DNA of 51,890 bases from Desulfovibrio aminophilus (GTDB taxonomy: Bacteria; Desulfobacterota; Desulfovibrionia; Desulfovibrionales; Desulfovibrionaceae), in the NCBI RefSeq assembly GCF_023660105.1, contig NZ_JAMHGA010000005.1, positions 1 through 51,890 on the forward strand, read 5' to 3'. Made by a program: the position numbers and the translations under genes. The notes beneath the pieces are model-generated. The model saw only the letters and a program-made list of their open reading frames with translations. It had not been told where the DNA came from and made no database searches. Positions within the stretch are counted from its first letter, which is position 1; every line of letters starts with the position of its first letter. Shown here piece after piece: positions 5,801 to 30,773 of the stretch.

Positions 5801-6910
5801 ATGCGCGGAAAAACCCTGGTGCTCAGCGCGGACAATCTCCAGTTCTCGCGCCGCTTCGACCGCGTGCGGGTCCAGCCCGTCCTGGCCCGGGTCCAGACCC
5901 TGGCCGCCGTCCTGGCCGAACTGCCCGTGCTTCCGGAAACCGCCGAAGCCCTCGACGCCGATCTCCGCCTGCGCTCCATCCTCGCTTCCGCCGCGCTCTC
6001 GGGCAACGCCCTGGGCCCGGAACAGGCCGCCCGCGCCCTGGACGCCGCCGAGCCCCCGGCCGACCCCGCGGCCCGCGAAATCCACAACCTCGGCCGGGCG
6101 CTGCGCCCCCTCACCAAGCCCCGCCGCGAGTTCGGCGTCATGGAGGTGGCCGAGGCCCACCTGCGCAAGCTCCACGCCGGCATCACCGAAGGCCTGGACT
6201 ATCCCGCGTCCGAACCCGGCGCGTACCGGTCCCGCTCCATCGAGGTGGGCGACGAGTCCCAGGGCGGCTCCTACGTCCCGCCCCGCCACGTCCAGGACGT
6301 CCGCCGCCTCATGGAGCGCTTCGCCGCCTGGATCAACTCCGAGCCCCTGCGCCACGAGCCGCCCCTGCTCCGCGCCGCCATCTGCTCCTTCCACCTGGCC
6401 TGCATCCACCCCTTCGACACCGGCAACCACCGCGCCGCCCGCGCCCTCCACGCCCTCATTCTCTCCGCCGCCGGGCTGCGCCGCCTCTCCTGGCTCCCGG
6501 CCATCCAGGAACACCGCGCCCCCCTGGAGTCCTACCGCGCCTTCCTCGACTCCCTGCGCCACGACCTGGACCTCACCGCCTACCTCGAACACCACCTCCT
6601 GGGCCTCCTGGACCAGCTCACCGAGATCAAGGCCCGGCTCCTGGCCCCCCTGGCCCGGCTCACCGCCGAGCACCACCTCCAGGCCCTCCTGGACCAGCGC
6701 CGCATCTCCCGCCGCCAGCTGGACCTCCTCCACCTGCTCCAGGAGCACGGCCGCCCCCTCACCCTCCAGCAGATCCTCGCCACCCGGCCCTTCAGCATCC
6801 TCTACCGCGACCGCACCTCCCACTCCGCCCGCCGCGACCTGCTCAACCTCGTGGAACAAGGCCTGCTCCACCGCTCCGCCCACGCCTTCTCCCCCTTCGG
6901 GGGTTCATAG
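5801..6910 (+). CDS. Fic-fold protein with degenerate catalytic and inhibitory motifs
   Basis: About 369 aa with the DUF4172/Fic/winged-helix layout of stand-alone bacterial Fic proteins. The Fic motif reads HPFDTGNHRAAR (His203). Compared with the canonical HPFx[D/E]GNGR, the metal-coordinating acid is Thr207 and the third Gly of the anion-hole loop is His210. The N-terminal inhibitory motif ([S/T]xxxE[G/N]) reads SAALSGN, so the autoinhibitory Glu is Ser67. Both losses suggest a divergent or non-AMPylating enzyme. A winged-helix-like C-terminus (about 290-360) could bind DNA. The start is ATG 5801 with AAGGTG upstream; an earlier TTG is unlikely. The last codons, stop included, are R1 repeat sequence (CCCTTCGGGGGTTCATAG). 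A canonical paralogue sits at 49417. Confidence 0.88.
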   Translation: MRGKTLVLSADNLQFSRRFDRVRVQPVLARVQTLAAVLAELPVLPETAEALDADLRLRSILASAALSGNALGPEQAARALDAAEPPADPAAREIHNLGRALRPLTKPRREFGVMEVAEAHLRKLHAGITEGLDYPASEPGAYRSRSIEVGDESQGGSYVPPRHVQDVRRLMERFAAWINSEPLRHEPPLLRAAICSFHLACIHPFDTGNHRAARALHALILSAAGLRRLSWLPAIQEHRAPLESYRAFLDSLRHDLDLTAYLEHHLLGLLDQLTEIKARLLAPLARLTAEHHLQALLDQRRISRRQLDLLHLLQEHGRPLTLQQILATRPFSILYRDRTSHSARRDLLNLVEQGLLHRSAHAFSPFGGS

Positions 6911-6962
6911 AAAGGCAAAGAGGCTCTCGCCTTTCCACCTTTCTGAAACGGGCCGAAGACCC
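6889..6962 (+). repeat. R1 hairpin repeat at 3' end of Fic gene 1
   Basis: CCCCCTTCGGGGG stem, TTCATAGAAAGGC, then CTTTCTGAAACGGGCCGAAG as right arm. It supplies the C-terminal residues FGGS and the TAG stop of the Fic gene. Confidence 0.85.
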
Positions 6963-7021
6963 GGCGAAAGGGATGCCGATTCTTTCATTCCCCCATTGAC
7001 CCGACCGCCGATCTCCACTAC

Positions 7022-7050
7022 GGTAACACTAAAATGAAAAAAGTGTTACC
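7022..7050. promoter_or_regulatory. Inverted repeat GGTAACACT/AGTGTTACC upstream of hydA
   Basis: Perfect 9-bp arms separated by 11 A-rich bases, 115 bp before the hydA start. The core GTAACAC recurs in the larger palindrome at 10615-10643. Operator or transcript hairpin; the binding protein is unknown. Confidence 0.5.
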
Positions 7051-7164
7051 GCACCCGCCGGATGCCCTTGGTTGAAGGTTTCCAGGCGTTGCGGAGCCCG
7101 AAGGAGGTGAGCGGGATTCAACACCGTCGGCTGTGGACCCAAAATCAGCAAAACGGAGGAACGT

Positions 7165-8418
7165 ATGAGCCGCATTGAAATGGAAAAGATTTTCTACGAG
7201 GACAGCGCGCCGGACCCGAAGGCGAACCCGGACAACCTCTACTTCATCCAGATCGATGAGAAGAAATGCATCGGCTGCGACACCTGCCAGCAGTACTGTC
7301 CGACCAACGCCATCTTCGGCGACTCCGGCGAACCGCACAAGATTCCGTACAAGGAACTGTGCATCAACTGCGGCCAGTGCCTGACCCACTGCCCGACCGC
7401 GGCCATCTATGAATCCCAGTCCTGGGTCAGCCAGATCGACAAGAAGCTCAAGGACAAGAAGCTCAAGACCGTGGCCATGCCCGCCCCGGCCGTGCGCTAT
7501 GCCCTGGGCGAGTGCTTCGGCATGGCTCCGGGCTCGGTGACCACGGGCAAGATGCTCTCGGCCCTCAAGCAGCTGGGCTTCACCCACGTCTGGGACAACG
7601 AGTTCACCGCCGACGTGACCATCTGGGAGGAAGGCACCGAATTCGTGGGACGCCTGACCAAGAAGATCGACGCGCCCCTGCCCCAGTTCACTTCCTGCTG
7701 CCCGGGCTGGCACAAGTACGTGGAATCCTATTACCCCGAACTGCTGCCGCACCTGTCCACGGCCAAGTCGCCCATCGGCATGGACGGGGCCCTGTCCAAG
7801 ACCTACGGCGCGGACACGCGCAAGTACAACCGCGCGGACATGTACACCGTGTCCATCATGCCCTGCACGGCCAAGAAGTACGAAGGCATGCGCGCGGACC
7901 TCTGGTCCTCCGGGTACCAAGACATCGACGCCACCATCGACACCCGCGAGCTGGCCTACATGCTCAAGAAGGCGGGCATCGACCTGAAGAAGATGTCCGA
8001 AGGCAAGCGCGACGACCTCATGGGCGACTCCACCGGCGGCGCGACCATCTTCGGCGTCACCGGCGGCGTCATGGAGGCGGCCCTGCGCTTCGCCTACCAG
8101 GCCGTGACCAAGCAGAAGCCCGCGTCCTGGGACTTCAAGGCCGTGCGCGGCCTGGAGGGACTCAAGGAGGCCACGGTGAACATCGGCGGCACGGACGTGC
8201 GCGTGGCCGTGATCCACGGGGCCAAGCGCTTCAAGAAGGTCTGCGACCTGATCAAGAGCGGCAAGTCCAACTGGCACTTCGTGGAATTCATGGCCTGCCC
8301 CGGCGGCTGCGTCATGGGCGGCGGCCAGCCGATCTTCCCCGGCGTGCAGCAGGCCGACAGCGGTCTTCTCGGCCGCTGCCTGGCTGGATGGAACAACCGT
8401 CTCGCGGACAACGCCTAG
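7165..8418 (+). CDS. hydA: Periplasmic [FeFe] hydrogenase large subunit
   Basis: 417 aa, the length of the Desulfovibrio periplasmic enzyme. Two 4Fe-4S ferredoxin motifs lie at the N-terminus ([11 protein letters not shown] from Cys35, and [11 protein letters not shown]). The H-cluster motifs are TSCCPGW (Cys179), MPCTAKK (Cys234) and [14 protein letters not shown] (Cys378, Cys382); these positions match the ligand numbering I recall for the D. desulfuricans enzyme. It reversibly oxidises H2 and passes electrons to periplasmic c-type cytochromes. It has no signal peptide of its own and is exported with HydB, whose Tat signal serves both. Good ribosome-binding site (CGGAGGAACGT). hydB follows after 11 nt. 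Maturases HydE, HydF and HydG are not in this window. Confidence 0.97.
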
Positions 8419-8429
8419 GAGGTGACGGA

Positions 8430-8801
8430 ATGAACACGTTGCACATCACCCGACGCAGCTTCCTGAAGACCTGCGGCGTGCTCGGCGGCGCGACCCTGCT
8501 CAACGCGGGACTTCCGGCCCTGGTCCGGGCCGCCAATGAAAAGGCGCTCAAGGACTACATGAACGACCGCATCAGCGCGGTCTACGGCGCGGACGGCAAG
8601 TTCCCCATCCGCGCCTCCCAGGACAACCCCCAGGTCAAGGCCCTGTACAAGAACTGGCTCGGCGAGCCCGGCAGCGAGAAGGCCCACCAGTTCCTGCACA
8701 TGCACTTCACGGACCGCTCCCAGAACATCAAGCGCCTGGGCGACAAGGCCGTGAACCCCAGGGCCAAGGAGTTCGAAGGCCAGCCCTATCCCTACGAATA
8801 A
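8430..8801 (+). CDS. hydB: Periplasmic [FeFe] hydrogenase small subunit with Tat signal
   Basis: 123 aa. The N-terminus carries the twin-arginine motif TRRSFLK followed by a hydrophobic stretch and an ALVRAA cleavage region. The mature part (DYMNDRISAVYGADGKFP onward) is the small subunit that wraps the large subunit in Desulfovibrio [FeFe] hydrogenase. The ribosome-binding site AGGAGGTGA overlaps the hydA stop codon, showing tight coupling for 1:1 synthesis. The downstream 100 bp carries no convincing terminator. Confidence 0.96.
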   Translation: MNTLHITRRSFLKTCGVLGGATLLNAGLPALVRAANEKALKDYMNDRISAVYGADGKFPIRASQDNPQVKALYKNWLGEPGSEKAHQFLHMHFTDRSQNIKRLGDKAVNPRAKEFEGQPYPYE

Positions 8802-8903
8802 GCCCCGCGATCACTCCTCCCCTCTCTTGCCTGCGGCGAGGAACGTTTCTGACCCAAGGGCACATTCCCTTTTCGGCATGGCGGATTGCGCGCGCTCCCG
8901 AGA

Positions 8904-9422
8904 CTACGGAGCGAGAAGCCCCTCCTCCTGGAGCAGGGGACTGTAAAACCGCCTCGCCAGGCTGGTGGAAGAAAAAACGATCTCGTCAATGAACGTGACC
9001 GCGCCGCCCGCCGAGCGGCAGGCGAGGCTTTCCGCGTACATGACCGTGGAGGGGTCGTCCATTTCGGCTCGCCGCTCCCGCCCCTTGAAATAGACGGCGG
9101 GCCGCAGCATGGCCAGCGCCTCCACGGCCGTGGGCCAGCGGTTCACGGCGACGGCGTCCACCATGCCCAGGGCGGCCAGGACCTCGGCCCGCTGCTCCGA
9201 GGAGAACACCGGCCGGTGCGGCCCTTTGTTCAGATATGCATCGGGCGTCACGGTGACGGCGAGAAAGCCGCAATGCTCCCGGGCCCGGGCCAGGTAGCGC
9301 ACATGCCCGAGGTGGAGCACGTCGAAGCAGCCGTGCGCCAAGCCGGTGGAGACGCCTTTGCCGCGCAGTTCCGCCATAGTCCGGGCCAGTTCCTCCAGGC
9401 CCATGACCTTGCTTCTGTGCAT
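8904..9422 (-). CDS. Cytidylyl/adenylyltransferase family protein (RfaE2-like)
   Basis: About 172 aa with the nucleotidyltransferase signature GCFDVLHLGHVRYL, which binds the nucleotide via HxGH, and a later GRERR/SSTSLARRFYS region resembling the ISSTxI motif. Family members join a CTP or ATP nucleotide to a sugar- or polyol-phosphate for surface polysaccharide assembly. The start ATG shares one base with the stop of the upstream epimerase (TGATG), so the two are translationally coupled and probably act in one sugar-nucleotide pathway. The exact substrate cannot be read from the sequence. Confidence 0.82.
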   Translation of the reverse strand: MHRSKVMGLEELARTMAELRGKGVSTGLAHGCFDVLHLGHVRYLARAREHCGFLAVTVTPDAYLNKGPHRPVFSSEQRAEVLAALGMVDAVAVNRWPTAVEALAMLRPAVYFKGRERRAEMDDPSTVMYAESLACRSAGGAVTFIDEIVFSSTSLARRFYSPLLQEEGLLAP

Positions 9423-19459: not shown

Positions 19460-20227
19460 ATGGATGACCGTATCCGCATGCAGCGATCCGCCTTCCCGCG
19501 CGGGCTGTCGCAAAGCAAGACAGGCCATAGGTTTTCCGTGGATTCCCTGCTCCTGGCCTCCTTTGCGAGAATCCGTCGGAAAGACCGCCGGGGGCTCGAT
19601 CTGGGCACCGGCTGCGGGGTGGTGGGGCTGGCCCTGCTCCTCCTGCACCCGGACCAGAACCTGCGGATCACGGGCCTGGACATCGACCCGGAAATGGCGC
19701 GCCACGCCTCGATCAATGCGGAACGTCTCGGACTCCAACAGCACTTCAACATACTGAACGAAGACGTGTCGTCATACAGAACGTCGAACGAACCACCCCA
19801 TGACTTCGTATCGTGCAATCCGCCCTGGCGCGATCCCGCAAGCGGGCGGCTGAGTCCCGGGCCGGACAAGGCCCGCGCCAGGGCCGAACTGGACGCCGGA
19901 CTGGACGCCTTCGCCTCGGCCGCGTCCCGGGCCCTGGGCGCGCGCGGCCGCTTCTTCCTGCTCCACACCCCGGACCGCCTGGAGGCCGTGCTGGCCTCCT
20001 GCCGGGCCCACGGCCTGGCCCCCAAGCGCCTGCGGCTCGTCCACGGCCACGCCGAGGCCCCGGCCCGGGCGCTCCTCCTGGAGGCCGTGCGCAACGGCGC
20101 GCCGGGGCTCGCCGTGGAGCCGCCGCTCCTGCTCTATCGCGGCCCGGAGCCGAACGCCCCGCACACCGGGACGGCCCTTGCCTTTTGCCCGTTTCTGGGG
20201 TGCAATCGGGCGGCAATGAAGGAGTGA
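19460..20227 (+). CDS. SAM-dependent methyltransferase, tRNA1(Val) A37 N6-type
   Basis: 255 aa. SAM-binding motif I DLGTGCGVVGLALL, an acidic motif ITGLDIDPEM and the catalytic CNPPW (NPP[Y/W], N6-adenine or glutamine methylation). The N-terminal SKTGHRFSVDSLLLASF matches the TrmN6/YfiC-type start, so N6-methylation of A37 in a tRNA is the likely reaction. The next gene follows after 4 nt. Middle codons (19740-19810) are noticeably less GC-biased than their surroundings. Confidence 0.85.
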   Translation: MDDRIRMQRSAFPRGLSQSKTGHRFSVDSLLLASFARIRRKDRRGLDLGTGCGVVGLALLLLHPDQNLRITGLDIDPEMARHASINAERLGLQQHFNILNEDVSSYRTSNEPPHDFVSCNPPWRDPASGRLSPGPDKARARAELDAGLDAFASAASRALGARGRFFLLHTPDRLEAVLASCRAHGLAPKRLRLVHGHAEAPARALLLEAVRNGAPGLAVEPPLLLYRGPEPNAPHTGTALAFCPFLGCNRAAMKE

Positions 20228-20231
20228 CCCC

Positions 20232-20678
20232 ATGCGACAAGCGCACCTCGCCCGGCTGGCCCCCTGCGGCCTGAACTGCGGCGCCTGCCTCGCCTTTTCC
20301 GGCGGCCCGGTCCAGGAGGCGGCCCAGGCCCTGATCCGCGCCCTGGGCCCCAACTTCGCGCCCTACGCCGAGCGCTTCACGGCCATGAACCCTGTCTTCG
20401 CCGACTATCCGGCCTTCGCCCGGCTCCTGGAATTCCTGGGCCACGGCTCCTGCGGCGGCTGCCGCCAGTCCGGCTGCCTGTTCCAGGCCTGCGGGGTGCA
20501 TGCCTGCGTGCGCGACAAGGGCCTGGACTTCTGCTTCCAGTGCGACGACTTTCCCTGCGATTCCCACGGCCTGCCCCCGGCCCTGGCCGAGCGCTGGCGG
20601 GCCAACAACGAGCGCATGCGCGACGAGGGCCCGGAGGCCTACTGGCTGCGCATCAAGGACAAGCCGAGATACCCGTAG
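20232..20678 (+). CDS. DUF3795-like cysteine-rich protein
   Basis: 148 aa. Cys pattern LAPCGLNCGACLAF, CGGCRQSGCLFQACGVHACV and FCFQCDDFPCDS, typical of DUF3795 proteins believed to bind zinc or an Fe-S centre; enzymatic role unknown. GGAG precedes ATG by 7 nt. Its TAG stop directly abuts the ATG of the next gene, so it lies in the same transcript as the split Rad50-like cassette, though a shared function is not implied. Confidence 0.85.
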   Translation: MRQAHLARLAPCGLNCGACLAFSGGPVQEAAQALIRALGPNFAPYAERFTAMNPVFADYPAFARLLEFLGHGSCGGCRQSGCLFQACGVHACVRDKGLDFCFQCDDFPCDSHGLPPALAERWRANNERMRDEGPEAYWLRIKDKPRYP

Positions 20679-22016
20679 ATGATCGCCCGCCTCACCTTGG
20701 AAAACTTCATGGCCCACGCCCGCACCGAGCTGGAGCTGGGCCCGGGCGTCACGGCCCTCACCGGCCCCAACAACGTGGGCAAGTCCGCCGTGGTCGAGGC
20801 CCTGCGCTGCCTGACCCAGAACCCCGCGCCGCGCCACGTCATCCGCCACGGGGCCAAGGAGGCCCGCGTGAGCGTCGAGCTGGACGACGGCACCCGCGTG
20901 GTCTGGATCAGGAAGAAGGCCGGCGCGGGCTACCAGCTCTGGCGGCCCGGGGCCGAGGCCCCGGAGGAGTTCTGGAAGCTCGGGCGCGGCGGCGTGCCCG
21001 ACGAGGTGCGCGAGGCCCTGCGCCTGGAGACCGTGGCCCTGGAGAACCGCGACGACGCCATCGACGTGCACCTCGGCAACCAGCGCCAGCCCATCTTTCT
21101 GCTCAACGAGCCGCCCTCGGTGGCGGCCTCCTTCTTCGCCGCCTCCAGCGAGAGCGCCCACCTCCTGGCCATGCAGGACGCGCTCAAGCGCCGGACCCAG
21201 GACGCCCGGCGCGACCAGGCCCGGGCCTCCGCCCGCCTGAAGGACATCCAGGACGCCCTGGACCGCCTCTCCGGCCTGCCGGACCTCGATCTGGCCCTGG
21301 CCGAGGCCCGCGACGAGGAAGACGCGCTGCGCCGCTCCGGCGAGGGCATTCCGGCCCTGGAGGACTGGCTTTCCCGCCGCGCGGGCCTGAAGCGCGATGC
21401 CGAGGCCGCCGCCCGCCGCGCCCGCGTCCTGGAACCCCTGGCCGCGCCGCCCGCCGCGGCCCCCACGGACCGCCTGGCGGCCCTGCTCCGCGACCTCCGT
21501 TTTGCCCGCGCCGCCCGTGAATCGTCCCGGGCCAAGGCCGCCGCCCTGTCTTCCCTCTCGGAACCCGCGCCCCCGGCCGCGACCGCGCGGCCCGCGGGGA
21601 TGCTGGCCGAGCTGCGCGGCCTGCTCCGCCGGCGCGCGGCCGTATTGGCGCGAACCGCCGCCCTGGCCCCGCTGGCCGAGGCCCCGGCCCCGGCTCCCAC
21701 GGCCCGGATCGCGGAGCTGGCCCGGGGCATCCGGTCCCTGAAGGCCGAGGAAAAGGCCCTCTCCGGCCGGTTCGCGGCCCTGGCCGCATTGCGCGAGTCC
21801 CCAGCCATCCGCAAGGCCGACGCCCTGGCCGACCTGCTGCGCCGCCTGTCCGAGTCCCGGGCCGCCCAGGACGCCGCCCGCAAGGCCTTCGAGGATTGCG
21901 CCGCGCGGCTCGACGGCCTGCGCGCCGAGATCGCCGCCCGGCTCGACGCCGTCGGCGTCTGCCCCACCTGCGGCGCGGGCCTGGACCTGGCCCGCTTCAT
22001 CCGGGAGGACGCATGA
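20679..22016 (+). CDS. Rad50/SbcC-like ATPase, N-terminal half only
   Basis: 445 aa. A RecF/SMC-like head: IARLTLENFMAHARTELEL, then Walker A GPNNVGKSA (Lys35). A beta-rich lobe (LDDGTRVVWIRKK) follows, then about 280 residues of Ala/Arg/Glu-rich coiled coil. The protein ends near a zinc-hook-like CPTCGAG (about 433) and a short tail. No signature motif, Walker B or D-loop is present: the protein stops where Rad50 turns at its hook. The missing C-terminal head half is encoded two genes downstream (23261-23917). The stop overlaps the nuclease gene start (ATGA). The two halves presumably assemble into one ABC ATPase head. Confidence 0.85.
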   Translation: MIARLTLENFMAHARTELELGPGVTALTGPNNVGKSAVVEALRCLTQNPAPRHVIRHGAKEARVSVELDDGTRVVWIRKKAGAGYQLWRPGAEAPEEFWKLGRGGVPDEVREALRLETVALENRDDAIDVHLGNQRQPIFLLNEPPSVAASFFAASSESAHLLAMQDALKRRTQDARRDQARASARLKDIQDALDRLSGLPDLDLALAEARDEEDALRRSGEGIPALEDWLSRRAGLKRDAEAAARRARVLEPLAAPPAAAPTDRLAALLRDLRFARAARESSRAKAAALSSLSEPAPPAATARPAGMLAELRGLLRRRAAVLARTAALAPLAEAPAPAPTARIAELARGIRSLKAEEKALSGRFAALAALRESPAIRKADALADLLRRLSESRAAQDAARKAFEDCAARLDGLRAEIAARLDAVGVCPTCGAGLDLARFIREDA

Positions 22017-22969
22017 GCCTGCCCCGCGTCCGGGCCTCGGGCCTGCTCTTCGCCGCCGACCCCCACGTGGCCGACACGCCCCCGGGCCAACGCCTGCCCG
22101 GCTACCGCGAGCAGGTCCTGGACAAGCTGGCGGCCTGGCTCGACCTGGCCCGCGGGCTGGACGCCCTGCCCGTGCTCCTGGGCGACCTCTTCCACTGGCC
22201 GCGCGAGAACTCCAACGCCATGCTGGTGGCGCTCATGCGCCTGTTCTCGCCCCAGCGGCCCTTCGTCCTGGTGGGCAACCACGACAAGCACCTGGCCCGG
22301 CTCACCAGCGACGTCTCCCTCTCCGTGCTGGCCGAGGCCGGGGCCCTGCGCCCCCTGTCCGAGCCCGGGCCCGCCTTCGTCCTGGAAACCCCGACCGGCG
22401 AGGCCCTGGTCGGCGCGAGCCCGGACGGATCGCCCCTGCCCTCGCGCTTCGAGCCCGCGCCCGGCGATCCCGGAACCGTGGTCTGGCTCACGCACCACAA
22501 CATCCGCTTCCCGGAGTTCGAGGCCCGGGCCCACGGCATCCACGAGCTGCCGGGCATCGACCTGGTGGTCAACGGCCACATCCACCGGCCCCAGCCCGAC
22601 GTGCGCGCCGGGGCCACGCTCTGGGTCAACCCCGGGAACATCACCCGCCTGACCTTCACCCGCCGTTCCAAGGAGCGCCGCCCGGCCGTGTTCTTCTGGG
22701 CCCCGGGCCGCGAGGCCCTGGAACGCCGCGAACTGCCCTTCCTGCCCTTCGAGCAGGTCTTCCCGGACCAGGAGTTCCCGCCCGAGGAACAGGAGGCCGA
22801 GGGCGAGTCCCGCTTCATCCAGGGCCTGGAACGCCTGGCCTGGCGGCGCACCGGCGAGGGCACCGGGCTCAGGCAGTTCCTGCAAACCAATCTGAACCCC
22901 GAACTCCCGGAGAGCGCGCTCGTCTGGGAGCTGTACAAGGAGGTCGTGCATGGTTCCGAAGCCGAATGA
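22013..22969 (+). CDS. SbcD/Mre11-like metallophosphoesterase nuclease
   Basis: 318 aa. All five calcineurin-like motifs of Mre11/SbcD nucleases are visible: ADPHV (DxH), LGDLFHW (GDxxH/D), VGNHDKH (GNHD), LTHHN and NGHIHRPQ (GHxH). The C-terminus (about 230-318) carries an acidic stretch (PEEQEAEGESRF) instead of the usual SbcD capping domain. Predicted to be the manganese-dependent DNA nuclease partner of the split ATPase. It overlaps the preceding gene by 4 nt and the following one by 20 nt. Confidence 0.88.
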   Translation: MSLPRVRASGLLFAADPHVADTPPGQRLPGYREQVLDKLAAWLDLARGLDALPVLLGDLFHWPRENSNAMLVALMRLFSPQRPFVLVGNHDKHLARLTSDVSLSVLAEAGALRPLSEPGPAFVLETPTGEALVGASPDGSPLPSRFEPAPGDPGTVVWLTHHNIRFPEFEARAHGIHELPGIDLVVNGHIHRPQPDVRAGATLWVNPGNITRLTFTRRSKERRPAVFFWAPGREALERRELPFLPFEQVFPDQEFPPEEQEAEGESRFIQGLERLAWRRTGEGTGLRQFLQTNLNPELPESALVWELYKEVVHGSEAE

Positions 22970-23264
22970 GGACCAGGCCCTGGAGGCCGAACTGGAGGCC
23001 CTGCGCCGCCGCTACGAGGGGCTCAAGGAGCAGAAGGTCCGGCTGGAGCAGGACCAGGCCCACCTGGCCGGACGCATCACCGAGCTGGAGGACGCGGCCC
23101 GGGCCGAGTTCGGCACCGCCGACCCGGCCGAGCTGGAACGCCTCCTGGAAGAGCGCCGGGCCGAGAACCGGCGGCTCGTGGAGGAGTACCGCAAGCATCT
23201 GCAAGGCATTCAGGAAAACCTCTCAACCATTGAGGCCCAAGCCTCCGGGGACGAGCGCCGGTGA
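22950..23264 (+). CDS. Short coiled-coil protein between nuclease and ATPase half
   Basis: 104 aa, nearly all predicted coiled coil (heptad-rich EAELEALRRRYEGLKEQK and ELERLLEERRAENRRLVEEY). Excellent ribosome-binding site (AAGGAGGT) inside the nuclease gene; the stop overlaps the next start (GTGA). Position and overlaps suggest it is a structural subunit of the same complex, possibly providing the descending coiled-coil arm missing from the split Rad50-like ATPase. No family recognised. Confidence 0.75.
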   Translation: MVPKPNEDQALEAELEALRRRYEGLKEQKVRLEQDQAHLAGRITELEDAARAEFGTADPAELERLLEERRAENRRLVEEYRKHLQGIQENLSTIEAQASGDERR

Positions 23265-23917
23265 ACGGACCGCAAGACTCCCCCATGCCCGACGCGCGCG
23301 CCCTGGAGCGCCGCCTGGACCGGCTCCAGGCCCGGGCCGAATCCCTGGCCGCCGAGCACGGCCGCGTGCGCGCCGAGGAGGCCTCCCTCTCGGCCTTCCT
23401 GGACCTCGCGCCCCGCGCGGCCCGCACCCTGGAAGACCTGGCCACGGCCCTGTTCGGCGAGCTGCTGGACGAGATCGAGGCCAATCTGACCTACGCCGTG
23501 CGCGAAATCCTGGGCCAGGACCGCACCGTCACCAGCCTGCGCGAGGTCAAGAACAACCGCCTCCAGGTCACGTTCCAGATCCACGCCGGAGACCGGCCCG
23601 AGGACCTGGAGGACATCCTCCTCGGCCAGGGCGGCAGCGTCTGCAACATCCTCTCCGTGGGCCTGCGGCTCATCGCCCTGTCCCAGCTCGACCCAGCACG
23701 GCACCGGCCCTTCCTGGTCCTCGACGAACAGGACTGCTGGCTGCGGCCCGCCCTGGTGCCCCGCTTCATGAAGTGCATCGCCGAGATCGCCAAGCGCCTC
23801 AACCTCCAGGTCCTGGTCATCAGCCACCACCCCCTGGACCTGTTCGTCAACGCCTGCGACCGCGTCCTCACCCTGGTCCCCGACCGCCTCCTCGGCGCGG
23901 GCTTCGCCCGTTCATAG
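23261..23917 (+). CDS. Rad50/SbcC-like ATPase, C-terminal half
   Basis: 218 aa from GTG 23261 (or ATG 23285). A coiled-coil start (about 10-70) leads into an ABC-ATPase C-lobe: LGQGGSVCNILSVGLRLIAL in the place of the signature helix (degenerate LSGGQ), Walker B FLVLDEQD (Asp155, Glu156) and the H-loop VLVISHHP. There is no Walker A, so it must pair with the N-terminal half at 20679. It is the last gene of the overlapping cassette; its final codons (GCCCGTTCATAG) run into an R1 repeat. Confidence 0.83.
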   Translation: MNGPQDSPMPDARALERRLDRLQARAESLAAEHGRVRAEEASLSAFLDLAPRAARTLEDLATALFGELLDEIEANLTYAVREILGQDRTVTSLREVKNNRLQVTFQIHAGDRPEDLEDILLGQGGSVCNILSVGLRLIALSQLDPARHRPFLVLDEQDCWLRPALVPRFMKCIAEIAKRLNLQVLVISHHPLDLFVNACDRVLTLVPDRLLGAGFARS

Positions 23918-24294: not shown

Positions 24295-26610
24295 ATGTTC
24301 CGCAAAAGTCTCGCCTCCGTCTTCATCGCTTCCGTGGCCTTGGCCCTGGTTCTGACAATGTCCGCCATCATCCTCTACGTCACCGACTCCTCCTACCACA
24401 TGGCCTTGAGCCTGGAGGAACAGGCCATGCGCCAGTCGGCGGCATCCGCCCGCGACGCCCTGGGCCTCTATGTGGAAAACGCCAAGGGCATGATCCAGTC
24501 CCTGTCCGGTCAGCGCCTCGTGCGCGAGGCCTTCTCCGGCGACACGGCCCCGGCCCGGAAGCGCATCGCCGAAACCCTGCGCGCCAACCCCGGCGTCTGG
24601 AGCATCATCGTCTTCGACGACAAGGGGCTGGTCATCGCCGGAGCCAACGCCGACGGCCAGGAACTCACCGGCCAGAGCCGCGCCGACCGCGGCTACTACC
24701 AGGCCGTCATGTCCGGCCAGGACCTCTTCCTGGGCAAGACCATCCTCGCGGCCAAGAGCGGCGGCGGCGACATCCACATCCTCACGGCGGTCAAGGCCGT
24801 CCACGACGAGTCCGGCAAGGTGATCGGCGGGATCGGCATCTTCCCCCGCTGGGAGGCCTTCACCAAGGTCTTCATCGACCCCGTGCGCTTCGGCGAGCAC
24901 GGCTACGGCTTCATGCTCGACTCCAAGGGCGCGTTCATAGCCCATGCCGTGGACAAGAGTCTCATGCTCAGCGACGCCTCGGGCCAGGAATTCGCCAGAA
25001 AGGCCCTGGCCACGAAGTCCGGCAGCTTCTTCTATGACTGGAAGGGCGCGCGCAAGTATCTGGCCCTGGAGACCGATCCGGTCACAGGCTGGACCATCTG
25101 CATGAGCGCCTACGCCTCCGAACTGACCGAGACCGCCTCGGCCCAGCGCAACATGCTCATGGGCATCGGCGCGGCGGCCGCGCTCCTGCTCACCGCCATC
25201 ATCTTCCTCATCATGAACCGCCTCGTGGTCCGGCCGATCCACGCCATCGAGGCCTTCACCTCGGCCATCGCCAAGGGCGACTTCTCGGCCGTCCCGCCCA
25301 CGGGCTTCCGCTTCGAGTTCAGCCACCTGGCCGAGAACATCCGGGCCATGGTGGCGGAACTGAAGAACAAGCTCGGCTTCGCCCAGGGCGTGCTGGACGG
25401 CTTCGTCCTGCCCTGCGCCGTGGCGGGCACGGACAACCGCCTCACCTTCGTCAACCCCCGCCTCATGGAGGCATTCGAGAAGCGCGGCCAGCCCCGGGAG
25501 GTTCTGGGCCAAATCTCGGGCCAGTTCCTGTTCAACGACCCGAGCCACGACACCTACCTTCACAAATCCATGCGCGAACTGCGCACCGTGGCCGGCGAGG
25601 TGGAGTACGACCTGCCCTCCGGCGCGCACAAGATCTTCAACGTGACCGCCCATCCCATCAAGGACATGGACGGCGAACTCATCGGTTCGCTGGCCGTGTG
25701 GTTCGACCTCACCGAACTGCGCGCCCAGCAACGGCGCATCGCGGACCAGAACGCCCGCATCGCCAAGGCCGCCGAGTCGGCCAACCAGATATCCGACCAG
25801 GTGGCCTCGGCCTCCGAGGAACTCTCGGCCCAGATCGAACAATCCAGCCGGGGCTCCGAGGAACAGCGCTCGCGCACCGGCGAGGCCGCCGCGGCCATGG
25901 AGGAGATGAACGCCACGGTCATGGAGGTGGCCCAAAGCGCCTCCCATGCCGCGGGACTGGCCGACACCGCCCGCGGCAAGGCCCAGGAGGGCGAACGCCT
26001 GGTGGGCGAGGTGGTGACCACCATCACCCGCGTCAACGAACAGGCCGAAACCCTCAAGGCCGACATGACCGAACTGGGCAGGCAGGCCGAGGGCATCGGC
26101 CGGATCATGAACGTGATCACCGACATCGCGGACCAGACCAACCTCCTGGCCCTGAACGCCGCCATCGAGGCCGCCCGCGCGGGCGAGGCCGGACGCGGCT
26201 TCGCGGTCGTGGCCGACGAGGTCCGCAAGCTGGCCGAAAAGACCATGACCGCCACCAAGGAAGTCGGCGACTACATCCAGGCCGTGCAGGAAAGCGCGCG
26301 CAAGAACATCCAGGGCACCGAGGCCACCACCCAGGCCATCCTGGCGGGCACCGAAACCGCCGAGAAATCCGGCGCGGCCCTGCGCGAAATCGTGGACATG
26401 GTGGAAAAGACCGCCGACCAGGTGCGCTCCATCGCCACGGCCAGCGAACAACAGTCCGCGGCCAGCGAACAGATCAGCCGCTCCACCGAGGAAATCAACC
26501 GCATCGCCTCGGAAACCGCCGAGGCCATGACCCAGTCCGCCCAGGCCGTGTCCGACCTGGCCCGGCTGGCCCAAAACCTCAAGACCACCATCGACGACAT
26601 GCGCCAATAG
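24295..26610 (+). CDS. Methyl-accepting chemotaxis protein (dCache-HAMP-PAS)
   Basis: 771 aa. TM1 (about 8-28), periplasmic double-Cache sensor (about 35-275, with [16 protein letters not shown] and [10 protein letters not shown]), TM2 (about 285-305), HAMP, a PAS domain (about 365-475) and a long cytoplasmic signalling coil with the conserved hairpin tip [20 protein letters not shown] and [13 protein letters not shown]. It senses a small ligand outside and possibly a second cue through PAS, and signals to CheA/CheW. AGGGGAAACGC precedes ATG. A stretch of about 95 nt encoding the tip is identical to the receptor gene at 28620. Confidence 0.95.
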
Positions 26611-27985: not shown

Positions 27986-28414
27986 TCAGCGCAGGGCCGA
28001 ACGGGTCCAGGTCACGATGTCCCCGGCGCGCATGGCCCCGGACTGCCGGGCCGCCTCGCGGCCGTCGCGGAACAGGATCAACGTGGGAATGGACTGCACG
28101 CCGAAACGCGCGCCCAGGGCCTGCTGTTCCTCGGTGTTCACCTTGCCGAGGCGCACGGACGGGCCCAGCAGCCCGGCGGCCTGCTCGAAGGCCGGGCCCA
28201 TCATGCGGCAGGGGCCGCACCACGGGGCCCAGAAATCCACCAGCAGGGGCAGGGCGTCGCGGGTCAGCAAGCGTTCCAGGAACGCGGCGTCCAGGTGCAG
28301 GGGGGCGTGGCCCCCGGCCAGGGGCAGGCCGCACTTGCCGCACACGGCCCGCTCCAGACGTTGCGGGTCCGCGCGGTTCACCGCCGAACAGGAGGGACAG
28401 ACGAGGGTGTTCAT
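27986..28414 (-). CDS. trxC: Thioredoxin 2 (zinc-finger thioredoxin)
   Basis: 142 aa. An N-terminal zinc ribbon ([13 protein letters not shown]...CGKCG) precedes a thioredoxin domain with the active site WCGPC, cis-Pro in SIPTLILF, and [13 protein letters not shown]. This is the TrxC architecture; in E. coli TrxC is oxidative-stress-responsive and cytoplasmic. ATG 28414 gives the usual family length; an upstream ATG at 28426 is possible. Followed by the sirtuin gene. Confidence 0.95.
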
Positions 28415-28448
28415 GCCCCCGAACATAACCACCCCGTTCCCAAAGACA

Positions 28449-28518
28449 AGCCGCCTTCGGCGGTTCATGGAAAGGCCGAGAGGCTCCCGGTTTTCTGAAA
28501 CGGGCCGAAGGCCCGGCC
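28449..28518 (+). repeat. R1 hairpin repeat upstream of trxC
   Basis: CCGCCTTCGGCGG stem, TTCATGGAAAGGCCGAGAGGCTCCC and right arm TTTTCTGAAACGGGCCGAAGGCC: one of the most complete single copies. It sits between the divergent trxC and chemoreceptor genes, so it is not at a 3' end here. Confidence 0.85.
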
Positions 28519-28619
28519 GCGCGTTATTATCATCCCTCCGCAGCCAAACAACGTGGACGGCAAACCCTTTTTCAGGGTATGCTCCATTCTCTCCACAACA
28601 ACCCAATGGAGCGCCGCAT

Positions 28620-30773
28620 ATGCTGAACAACCTCAAGATGCGCTGGAAAATACTCCTGCCGGTCTGCCTGGCGGTGATCGTGGTCTTCGCCGCGACCATC
28701 TTCCTCATCCATCGCAAGCTGCGGCAGACCTCCGAGGCGGACATCGCCCTCCTGGGCCAGGAAATGAGCCTGCGCCACGGCAACGCCGTGGGCCGCGAAC
28801 TGGATTCCGTCATGAGCCTGGCCGAGGGCCTGGCCCAGATGCTCGCCGGGGCCAAGACCTCCGGCGGCGTGGACCGCGCGGCCCTGGAGGCCATGCTCAA
28901 ACCCGTGCTGGAAGACTCGCCCGACCTCTTCGGCGTCTGGACCACCTGGGAGCCCGACGCCTTCGACGGCAAGGACGCCGAGTACGCGGGCAAGGACGCC
29001 TTCCACGACGCCACCGGACGGCTCATCCCCTACTGGTACCGCGAAGGCGCCAAGATCACCGGCGGCGTGACCACCACCTACGAAGGCCCCTCCCCAGGCT
29101 CGGACTGGTACCAGAAGCCCCTGCGCGGCAGGAAGCCCTACGCCACTCCGCCCACGGCCTACGACGTGGGCGGCAAGTCCATCATGCTCGTGAGCTTCGG
29201 CGTGCCGGTCATGGTGGACGGCAAGGCCCTGGGCGTGGCGGGCGTGGACCTCTCCCTGGAAAAAATGGCCGACATGGCCTCGGCCATCAAGATCTTCGAA
29301 ACCGGCTACGGCTATCTCCTGGCCGGTGACGGCATGGTCGTGGCCCATCCCAGGCGCGAACTCATCGGCAAGGCCGCCGAGGAGGCCGCGGGCAAGGCCA
29401 ACGCGGCCGAAGTCCTGGCGGCGGTAAAGGCCGGACGGCCGTACAGCTTCCGCCAGCAGACCCCGGCCGGGGTCATGCTCAACGTGCTCACGCCCATCCG
29501 CATCGGCGACACGGACACCGCCTGGAGCTTCGGCGTGACCATTCCCGAGGCCCGCGTCATGGAAAACGCCGACGCCCTCACCCGCCTGCTCCTGATCCTC
29601 GGCGTGGGCGGCGTGCTCTTCGTCATCCTGGCCGTGTTCCTCATCTCCCGCGCCATAGTGAACCCGGTCAACACCCTCGTTGCCGGGGCCGAGGCCGTGG
29701 CCAAGGGCGACCTGGACCGCGACATCGGCGTGCGCCAGAAGGACGAGATCGGCATCCTGGCCGAGGCCTTCCGCAAGATGGTCGCCGGACTCAAGGACAT
29801 GATCGAGACGGCCAACACCAAGACCCGCGAGGCCGAGGAAATGACCCGCAAGGCCCGCGTCGCGGCCGACGAGGCCGAGGCCGCCCGCCGCCAGGCCGAG
29901 CAGGCCAAGCGCGAGGGCATGCTCGACGCGGCCCGGCGCATCGAGGCCATCGTGGAACGCGTGACCTCGGCCTCCGAGGAGCTGGCCGCCCAGATCGAGG
30001 AGTCCAGCCGGGGCACCGAGAACCAGCGCGAACGCACCTCCGAGTCCGCCACGGCCATGGAACAGATGAACGCCTCGGTCATGGAGGTGGCCCGCAACGC
30101 CTCCGAGGCCGCCGGAGACGCGGACAGCGCCCGCGACGAGGCCCAGCGCGGCGCGGACGTGGTGAACAACGTCATCGCGGCCATCAACGAGGTCCAGACC
30201 CAGGCCCAGCGCATGCACGAAAGCCTCGGCGTCCTGGGCGAACAGGCCGAGGGCATCGGCCGGATCATGAACGTGATCACCGACATCGCGGACCAGACCA
30301 ACCTCCTGGCCCTGAACGCCGCCATCGAGGCCGCCCGAGCGGGCGACGCCGGACGCGGCTTCGCCGTGGTCGCCGACGAGGTCCGCAAGCTGGCCGAGAA
30401 GACCATGACCGCCACCAAGGAAGTGGGCGAGGCCGTGTCCGGCATCCAGACAGGCACCCATCAGAACATCAAGAGCATGGAAGCCTCCGGCGAAGCCGTG
30501 GACAAGAGCACCGGGCTGGCCGGAGAGGCGGGCAAGGCCCTGGGCAACATCGTGGGCCGCATCGAATCCACCGCCGACAAGGTCCGGGCCATCGCCACGG
30601 CCTCCGAGGAACAGTCCGCGGCCAGCGAACAGATCAGCCGGGGCACCGAGGAGGTCAACCGCATCGCGGCCGAGACCGCCCAGGCCATGAACCAGTCCGC
30701 CCAGGCAGTGGCCGAACTGGCCTCCATGGCCCAGGAACTCCAGCGCCTCGTGGACCAGATGAAAAACGCCTAG
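28620..30773 (+). CDS. Methyl-accepting chemotaxis protein (dCache-HAMP)
   Basis: About 717 aa. TM1 (about 10-30), a periplasmic Cache sensor (about 35-310; [38 protein letters not shown] and [12 protein letters not shown] are typical of ligand-binding Cache domains), TM2 (about 320-345), HAMP, a heptad-rich linker, and the signalling domain with [20 protein letters not shown]. No cytoplasmic PAS, unlike the neighbouring receptor. GGAG precedes ATG by 8 nt. An R1-derived region and a strong terminator follow. Confidence 0.95.

Follow-up and report, generated by a model that had tools for sequence, protein, structure and literature searches.

Organization and distribution of the cassette

The stretch of DNA analysed here, called the window, comprises all 51,890 nucleotides (nt) of positions 1 to 51,890 of contig NZ_JAMHGA010000005.1 of Desulfovibrio aminophilus, and contains a cassette of four overlapping genes, g1 to g4, whose products resemble the N-terminal and C-terminal halves of a Rad50/SbcC-type ATPase, an Mre11/SbcD-type nuclease and a small additional protein (Table 1). 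The analysis recovered the same four open reading frames (ORFs), with the same overlaps of 4, 20 and 4 nt at the g1/g2, g2/g3 and g3/g4 junctions, as a preliminary description of this DNA, which was made from the sequence alone and proposed that a Rad50-type ATPase is split here at its hook. The motifs listed in that description are also found in the window, since g1 carries a Walker A motif and a hook-like end and no Walker B motif, and g4 carries a degenerate signature (GQGGSV), a Walker B motif (FLVLDEQD) and an H-loop (ISHH) and no Walker A motif.

Table 1. Features of the four-gene cassette and its upstream neighbours (window coordinates; aa, amino acids).
Feature	Position	Strand	Basis
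g1, Rad50/SbcC-type N-half	20679..22016	+	ORF, 445 aa, ATG start
g2, Mre11/SbcD-type metallophosphoesterase	22013..22969	+	ORF, 318 aa, ATG start
g3, small protein	22950..23264	+	ORF, 104 aa, ATG start
g4, Rad50/SMC-type C-half	23261..23917	+	ORF, 218 aa, GTG start
Walker A GPNNVGKS, g1 residues 29-36	20763..20786	+	read in sequence
Arm, four 39-aa repeats, g1 residues 251-406	21429..21896	+	autocorrelation and predicted helices
Hook motif CPTC, g1 residues 428-431	21960..21971	+	sequence; Rad50 hook match; CxxC kept in relatives
Signature-like GQGGSV, g4 residues 122-127	23624..23641	+	read in sequence; GQGG kept in homologues
Walker B FLVLDE, g4 residues 151-156	23711..23728	+	read in sequence
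H-loop histidine H189 of g4 (ISHH)	23825..23827	+	sequence; invariant in alignment
Upstream neighbour, small-domain methyltransferase	19460..20227	+	MTS E 2.6e-9; homologue at 16/80 loci
Upstream neighbour, DUF3795 protein	20232..20678	+	DUF3795 E 5e-15; homologue at 14/80 loci

A scan of named genomes yielded 124 relatives of g4, and the best 80 loci were analysed; judging by their labels, these come mostly from Desulfovibrionaceae, other sulfate reducers and Planctomycetota, and one bin each carries the label Clostridiales, Bacillota or Sumerlaeia. By profile searches, all four genes are present at 65 of the 80 loci, and at each of these 65 they lie in the same order on one strand, so the conservation of gene order that the preliminary description had singled out for checking is found. 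Of the 15 loci without the full set, we read 8 as truncated where their contig stops and 7 as incomplete though uncut (L074, L101, L102, L104, L106, L112 and L134). A frameshift in an ordinary sbcC gene, judged unlikely in the preliminary description, is excluded as the source of the split because the nuclease gene intervenes between the halves and because 65 of the 80 loci, and phages as well, show the same division.

The products of g1 and g4 match complementary lobes of Rad50/SMC-type heads

The g1 protein is assigned to AAA_23 by Pfam (E 2.5e-10), its C-terminal part matches the hook of P. furiosus Rad50 in profile searches (6zff, E 8.8e-6; 1l8d, E 1.4e-4), and the polypeptide ends 14 residues past the CPTC motif, which is a putative zinc hook. 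When the N-lobe of a g1 AlphaFold model (built from 55 rows; predicted local distance difference test score, pLDDT, 81.1) was searched with Foldseek, the lowest E-values were those of the Rad50 N-lobes 1ii8_A, 9a9j_A and 1f2u_A/C. Among the 65 relatives that carry all four genes, a CxxC motif lies close to the g1 C-terminus in every case, and the Walker A pattern is found in 56 of 65 g1 proteins and in none of the 65 g4 proteins; we read the nine g1 proteins without it as having lost their start to a contig end. A loose Walker B pattern in 4 of the 65 g1 relatives is taken as chance. The g1 alignment comprised the window and 54 of the 56 relatives (of 65) that passed the requirement for GxNNxGKS and a terminal CxxC (L088 and L094 omitted), and residue Q135 is invariant in these rows, which were pre-selected for Walker A and CxxC.

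The g4 protein consists of a long helix followed by a C-lobe, and no Pfam match above the cut-off was obtained for it or for g3. Its AlphaFold model (65 rows; mean pLDDT 91.3) has as its best VIA-align match the Rad50 C-lobe chain 1f2u_B of P. furiosus (Z 12.7, root-mean-square deviation 2.9 Å over 141 residues). The GQGG pattern occurs in 63 of 65 g4 relatives, partly by construction as the loci were found by g4 motifs, and is invariant across 13 aligned homologues. In the g4 alignment, made of the window and 64 of 75 rows and lacking L114, L126 and L130 (the Clostridiales, Sumerlaeia and Bacillota bins), the Walker B glutamate and H189 are invariant. Thus g1 and g4 match complementary lobes of the Rad50/SMC type and g1 ends just past the hook, in agreement with the split proposed earlier. 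As the 1f2u structure holds the Rad50 lobes as separate chains of 149 and 145 residues, a Rad50 head made of two chains is physically possible.

The arm of g1 is built from 39-residue units

The arm, measured from a conserved point in the N-lobe to the hook in the 53 of 55 alignment rows where this could be done, is exactly 237, 276, 315, 354 or 393 residues long in 44 of 53 homologues and lies within 2 residues of this ladder in 49; when 2000 sets of lengths were drawn uniformly at random, not one was as regular (a comparison that ignores kinship). Leucine and proline recur in the arms at a lag of 39 residues, with an autocorrelation z of 35 relative to shuffled sequences (55 homologues), and predicted arm helices in the window g1 span residues 264-291, 303-329, 342-369 and 381-425, so that the modelled repeat consists of a helix of ~28 residues and a proline-rich loop of ~11 residues. 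A step of ~41 aa, estimated from total g1 lengths, was superseded by the value of 39 measured between conserved points. What the preliminary description called a coiled coil in g1 is thus for the most part an array of 39-aa repeats and not an ordinary coiled coil.

The nuclease and the small protein

The g2 protein is assigned to Metallophos by Pfam (E 4.8e-7), and its closest solved structures by profile are those of Thermotoga maritima SbcD/Mre11 (E 7.2e-11). It contains the sequences DPH, GDLF, GNHD, THH and GHIH, which we take to be the named motifs of this nuclease family; motifs of the Mre11 type are retained in the aligned g2 proteins of bacterial homologues, whose C-terminal region is also conserved. 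The assignment of an Mre11-type nuclease between the two ATPase halves thus stands, with intact motifs and SbcD/Mre11 as the nearest solved relative, and g2 is predicted from these motifs to be an active nuclease.

The g3 protein contains no cysteine and has a conserved (F/Y)GT turn in the middle of the protein. It is probably helical and, judging by its sequence, may form a helical hairpin; of the 104-aa coiled-coil protein described earlier, the small extra protein and its conserved place in the gene order are observed, but its helical shape is a prediction. The measurable part of g3 does not track arm length (Spearman -0.07, 50 of 65 loci). As the arm varies by whole repeats and g3 does not vary with it, the distal arm probably needs no matching return strand.

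The halves co-occur even when unlinked

In 297 genomes of the phylum, 14 contain a strong g4 match (E < 1e-45) and all 14 also contain g1 at E <= 1e-20 (Fisher p 4e-23, with kinship ignored), including two in which g1 lies on a different contig from g4 (G073 and G106). These 14 are what remained of 45 genomes with a g4 match after 31 weak ones (E 2e-6 to 1e-3) were rejected as general ABC/SMC similarity. A search for unlinked g1 covered the genomes of the 7 uncut incomplete loci together with G106 and G073, which likewise lack g1 beside g4; since G073 and the genome of L134 give identical coordinates, these make 8 distinct genomes. In G073, G106, G297, G298 and G301, g1 was located at a site away from g4. 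One genome without a strong g4, G211, has an 82-aa open frame that matches the P-loop region of g1 (C13:2284-2439), which is perhaps a remnant of a lost cassette.

Within the host family, g4 is found in 55 of 149 genomes and 18 of 44 genera, and in the phylum of a planctomycete carrier a strong g4 match is found in 9 of 199 genomes, the carrier included, after 2 of 11 matches were dropped as general ABC/SMC similarity. A g4 tree of 65 rows largely tracks taxonomy, though one Desulfobacterales branch lies within the planctomycete side. The window g4 clusters with Desulfovibrionaceae, in keeping with a host of that family.

Versions of the cassette in phages

Genes for a divided Rad50-type ATPase are also present in several groups of phages. 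Microcystis phage Mvi-JY20 has the four genes in the same order as the window; its nuclease (L040 5936-6895) has GQHD and GDTH in place of GNHD and GHxH, and may, on the basis of these substitutions, be altered in catalysis. Bacillus phage vB_BboS-125 has an N-half, an AP2 gene, a 78-aa protein, a C-half, a 118-aa protein and an SbcD-type gene. The record of this phage (NC_048735) labels the halves 'exonuclease' and 'ATPase', and its SbcD-type metallophosphoesterase gene (L039 8250-9230) is unannotated.

A viral scan with the Bacillus phage g4 found 27 loci, the query phage among them. In these 27 IMG/VR contigs the order is N-half, small protein, C-half and nuclease without exception, the N-halves all end in CPLC or CPTC, the Walker A pattern is present in none of the C-halves and the Walker B pattern is present in 22. 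The arms of the N-halves are also periodic, at a lag of 47 residues (18 of 27 sequences). In 7 of these 27 Bacillota phage cassettes (L229, L230, L231, L245, L247, L248 and L254) the N-half is separated from the small protein by an AP2-domain gene; one guess is that it is a former homing endonuclease. Viral scans with the window g4 alignment and with the halves of the Microcystis phage returned zero relatives.

A viral scan with the g1 alignment found 37 loci, of which 18 from large phages (E <= 5e-10, some of them near-copies) were used and 19 short matches were dropped. All 18 N-halves terminate in CPxC, and comparison with one of these loci, L279, revealed UvsX/RecA near the N-half at 11 of 18 and an Mre11-type gene at 9 of 18. 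L279 and L268 also have both the small protein and the C-half, with an E-value of only 0.001 for the small protein in L268, and the set in L279 sits with genes for UvsX/RecA, a PD-(D/E)XK exonuclease and a sliding clamp. Two further features of these loci are a gene in L279 that appears RuvC-like by eye and has no Pfam match, and the Mre11-type gene of L268 (6463-7518), which consists of two ORFs (6463-6834 and 6862-7518) owing to a split or a sequencing error. When annotated phages were searched by tblastn, g1 matched 7 records, one of which, Escherichia phage IME392, has one long protein at the match, and g4 had no match.

Comparison with known systems

The cassette shares with SbcCD/Mre11-Rad50 both ABC lobes, the CxxC hook and an Mre11-type nuclease with intact metal-binding motifs. 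By structure comparison Rad50 ranks first for the g1 N-lobe (Foldseek) and for the g4 C-lobe (VIA-align), with SMC heads close or ahead in other comparisons. The cassette differs in that its ATPase is split at the hook into two genes and accompanied by a third, small protein, and in having an arm of 39-aa repeats, a GQGG signature-like motif and no match to the SbcC model TIGR00618. The two lobes are thus not on one polypeptide, since each has a gene of its own in the window and at 65 of the 80 loci, and in some genomes these genes are unlinked. Because the ATPase is not a single chain, lacks LSGG and does not match TIGR00618, we treat the cassette as a variant of SbcCD rather than as an ordinary member.

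Among the phage versions, the sets that include phrog_16465 ('exonuclease') and phrog_15167 ('ATPase'), as in vB_BboS-125, likewise cluster an N-half with a terminal CxxC, a small protein, a C-half and an SbcD-type nuclease, but the nuclease comes last, an AP2 gene is present in 7 of 27 and the arm periodicity is 47 rather than 39. The large-phage modules L279 and L268 also have a hooked N-half, an Mre11-type gene, a small protein and a C-half as separate genes; unlike the cassette, they are interleaved with PD-(D/E)XK exonuclease and sliding-clamp genes, with UvsX/RecA ahead. The Mre11/Rad50 fusion proteins reported from Mimivirus and others rearrange the same partners, but fusion is the opposite of the split seen here (PMC3175470). 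In the available portion of a jumbo-phage survey, SbcC and SbcD are nearly universal in those phages and a split SbcC is not mentioned (PMC7824862), and searches of the open-licence literature gave no title or abstract on a split Rad50/SbcC.

Genomic context and other repair genes

In the window, the cassette lies downstream of mutM (formamidopyrimidine glycosylase), murJ and genes for a methyltransferase and a DUF3795 protein, an arrangement that precedes the cassette in part of the host family. Of these, homologues of murJ and mutM were found upstream at 13 and 10 of the 80 loci, many of which have short upstream sequence (see Table 1 for the other two). The stop codon of the DUF3795 gene, a frequent host-family neighbour, abuts g1 with no gap, and downstream of the cassette are genes for two methyl-accepting chemotaxis proteins with dCache domains (24295-26610 and 28017-30773). 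At other loci, a gene for an RNB (RNase II/R-type) domain protein lies between g3 and g4 in L042 (G277, minus strand, 6864-9056), and in the Pirellulaceae bins L101 (6947-8557), L102 and L104 a stand-alone g4 lies immediately ahead of accD (confirmed by Pfam in L101 and identified by eye in L102 and L104); g1 is located elsewhere in 2 of these 3 genomes.

The preliminary description had suggested checking the genome for ordinary sbcCD or addAB/recBCD. No match to TIGR00618 at E 0.001 was found across the genome of D. aminophilus, and of 14 control genomes all match at that threshold and one does so above the curated cut-off. Adjacent UvrD-helicase and PD-(D/E)XK proteins, identified by Pfam, are present and are read by us as an AddAB-like pair, and we also read one protein as RecN.

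Weighing the interpretations

Given the sequence motifs and lobe folds, the conserved gene order, the co-occurrence of g1 and g4 and the stepwise arm lengths described above, the four genes quite probably specify one DNA-end-processing complex that resembles Mre11-Rad50/SbcCD and in which Rad50 is assembled from separate chains. Several observations weigh against this interpretation. By sequence profile, g1 matches Smc6 (E 1.2e-9) ahead of Rad50 N-lobes (from E 1.5e-8); for g4, Foldseek gives its lowest E-value to the SMC head 5h66_B, with Rad50 at rank 4, and the profile search gives a weak match to the cohesin Smc1 head (E 2.1e-4). The canonical Rad50 signature is LSGG, and g4 has GQGG in its place as well as an unusual D-loop region, QDCWLRP. 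The predicted template modelling score of the g1 model is 0.40, which makes the helix arrangement of the arm unreliable. In terms of distribution, g4 was found without g1 in G299 and G300 and with only a g1 fragment in G302 (genome completeness not stated), and at 7 of the 18 large-phage loci the retrieved stretch yielded the N-half alone. Finally, 1 of 14 cassette carriers and 5 of 44 other genomes have an SbcC match at E < 1e-20 (Fisher p 1.0), the latter genomes being hand-picked from the phylum listing and not random. Some SbcC match at E 0.001, mostly short, is present in 46 of these 58 genomes. Replacement of SbcCD by the cassette therefore cannot be claimed, and mutual exclusion finds no support, with SbcC sparse in the tested genomes with and without the cassette and no anticorrelation between them.

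The SMC-like features could instead indicate a paralogous ABC machine without canonical catalysis, such as a structural DNA tether or chromosome organiser with the nuclease as an accessory. The unusual signature and D-loop region, the SMC and cohesin heads that appear among the sequence and structure matches, partly ahead of Rad50, and an arm of variable length that suggests a tether all fit this explanation. It is nevertheless unlikely, since the alignments show no variation at the Walker B glutamate and H189 of g4 or at Q135 of g1 (the g1 rows being those pre-selected for Walker A and CxxC), g2 of bacterial homologues keeps its Mre11-type motifs, and a hook lies at the end of g1 where SMC proteins have a hinge. 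It is very improbable that g1 and g4 fail to make up a single head and that each pairs with another partner, for example RecN or another SMC-like protein, with co-occurrence reflecting operon inheritance only. This proposal would account for some planctomycetes in which g4 is unlinked to g1-g3, but the 14 of 14 co-occurrence holds despite the location of g1 on another contig in G073 and G106, each half lacks the motifs carried by the other, and a similar split is seen in further phage groups.

An anti-phage defence complex of the Lamassu, Gabija or Wadjet type, which would sense DNA ends and destroy invading DNA, is a decidedly unlikely explanation. It is favoured by the PADLOC hits of g1, with LmuB at E 3.1e-11 and GajA at E 3.4e-9, and by a weak match of g4 to mad3 (E 1.9e-5). 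GajA (OLD/Gabija) is an ABC ATPase fused to a Toprim nuclease; a Pfam search reaching to E 1 gave no Toprim match in any of the four cassette proteins, and the GajA-matching stretches of g1, among those listed, lie within residues 2-53. Hooked Rad50-like ATPases exist in Lamassu, where LmuB is described as a short, often hooked Rad50-like ATPase of ~650 aa, but LmuB has both ATPase ends in one chain and the systems to which it belongs include effector domains, for example the Cap4 nuclease (PMC10586767). The best-matching LmuB model, PDLC03863, aligns best with residues 4-81 of the 445 in g1 and another LmuB model with residues 2-200, and of the 25 PADLOC models listed for g1, out of 77 that matched it, 24 have a best stretch that reaches no further than residue 81; g2 has no PADLOC match. 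In addition, the cassette is preceded by mutM, murJ and the methyltransferase gene in part of the host family and the stand-alone planctomycete g4 adjoins accD (other neighbours were not scanned against the defence library), the g4 tree broadly tracks taxonomy, and phages carry their own versions. Of the two roles offered in the preliminary description, end processing is thus favoured, by analogy with some of the large-phage versions, which lie among UvsX, sliding-clamp and PD-(D/E)XK genes, and by the place of the cassette behind mutM and murJ in part of the host family, but defence finds little support.

A model for a proposed multi-chain Rad50 and its implications

If the cassette encodes an Mre11-Rad50-like complex, g1 would supply the N-lobe, arm and hook, g4 the C-lobe and a base helix, and g3 a small third subunit. 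The products of g1 and g4 would join as an ABC head, and ATP would close two such heads, so that each Walker A motif faces the signature motif of its partner, with g2 bound near the head and cutting a hairpin or the end of the DNA. Two g1 chains would be linked at their CPTC hooks via Zn2+ and thereby tether ends, and the arm would be a string of 39-aa units, more numerous in some species than in others. Our best guess is that g3 would brace the hook or the head-proximal coil.

The repeat-built arm, the unlinked yet co-occurring halves and the phage versions extend what had been described from the sequence of this locus. A tentative further reading, somewhat less likely than not, is that the cassette represents a self-standing class of Mre11-Rad50 systems, found on chromosomes and in phages, in which Rad50 is obligately multi-chain and the hook is carried on a modular tether of 39-aa units rather than on a paired coiled coil that carries signals. 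If so, the hook and the head would be mechanically uncoupled, or coupled only via g3.

The long coiled coil of Mre11-Rad50 is generally viewed as a relay of signals between the hook and the ATPase, a role that is difficult to examine while all three parts, head, coil and hook, belong to one chain. Separate chains, and arms that differ by units of 39 residues, would allow arm length, hook and head to be varied independently. Furthermore, the case of vB_BboS-125, with its unannotated nuclease gene and its ATPase halves under other names, suggests that genomes which seem to lack SbcCD by standard models can carry an equivalent that has been missed by annotation.

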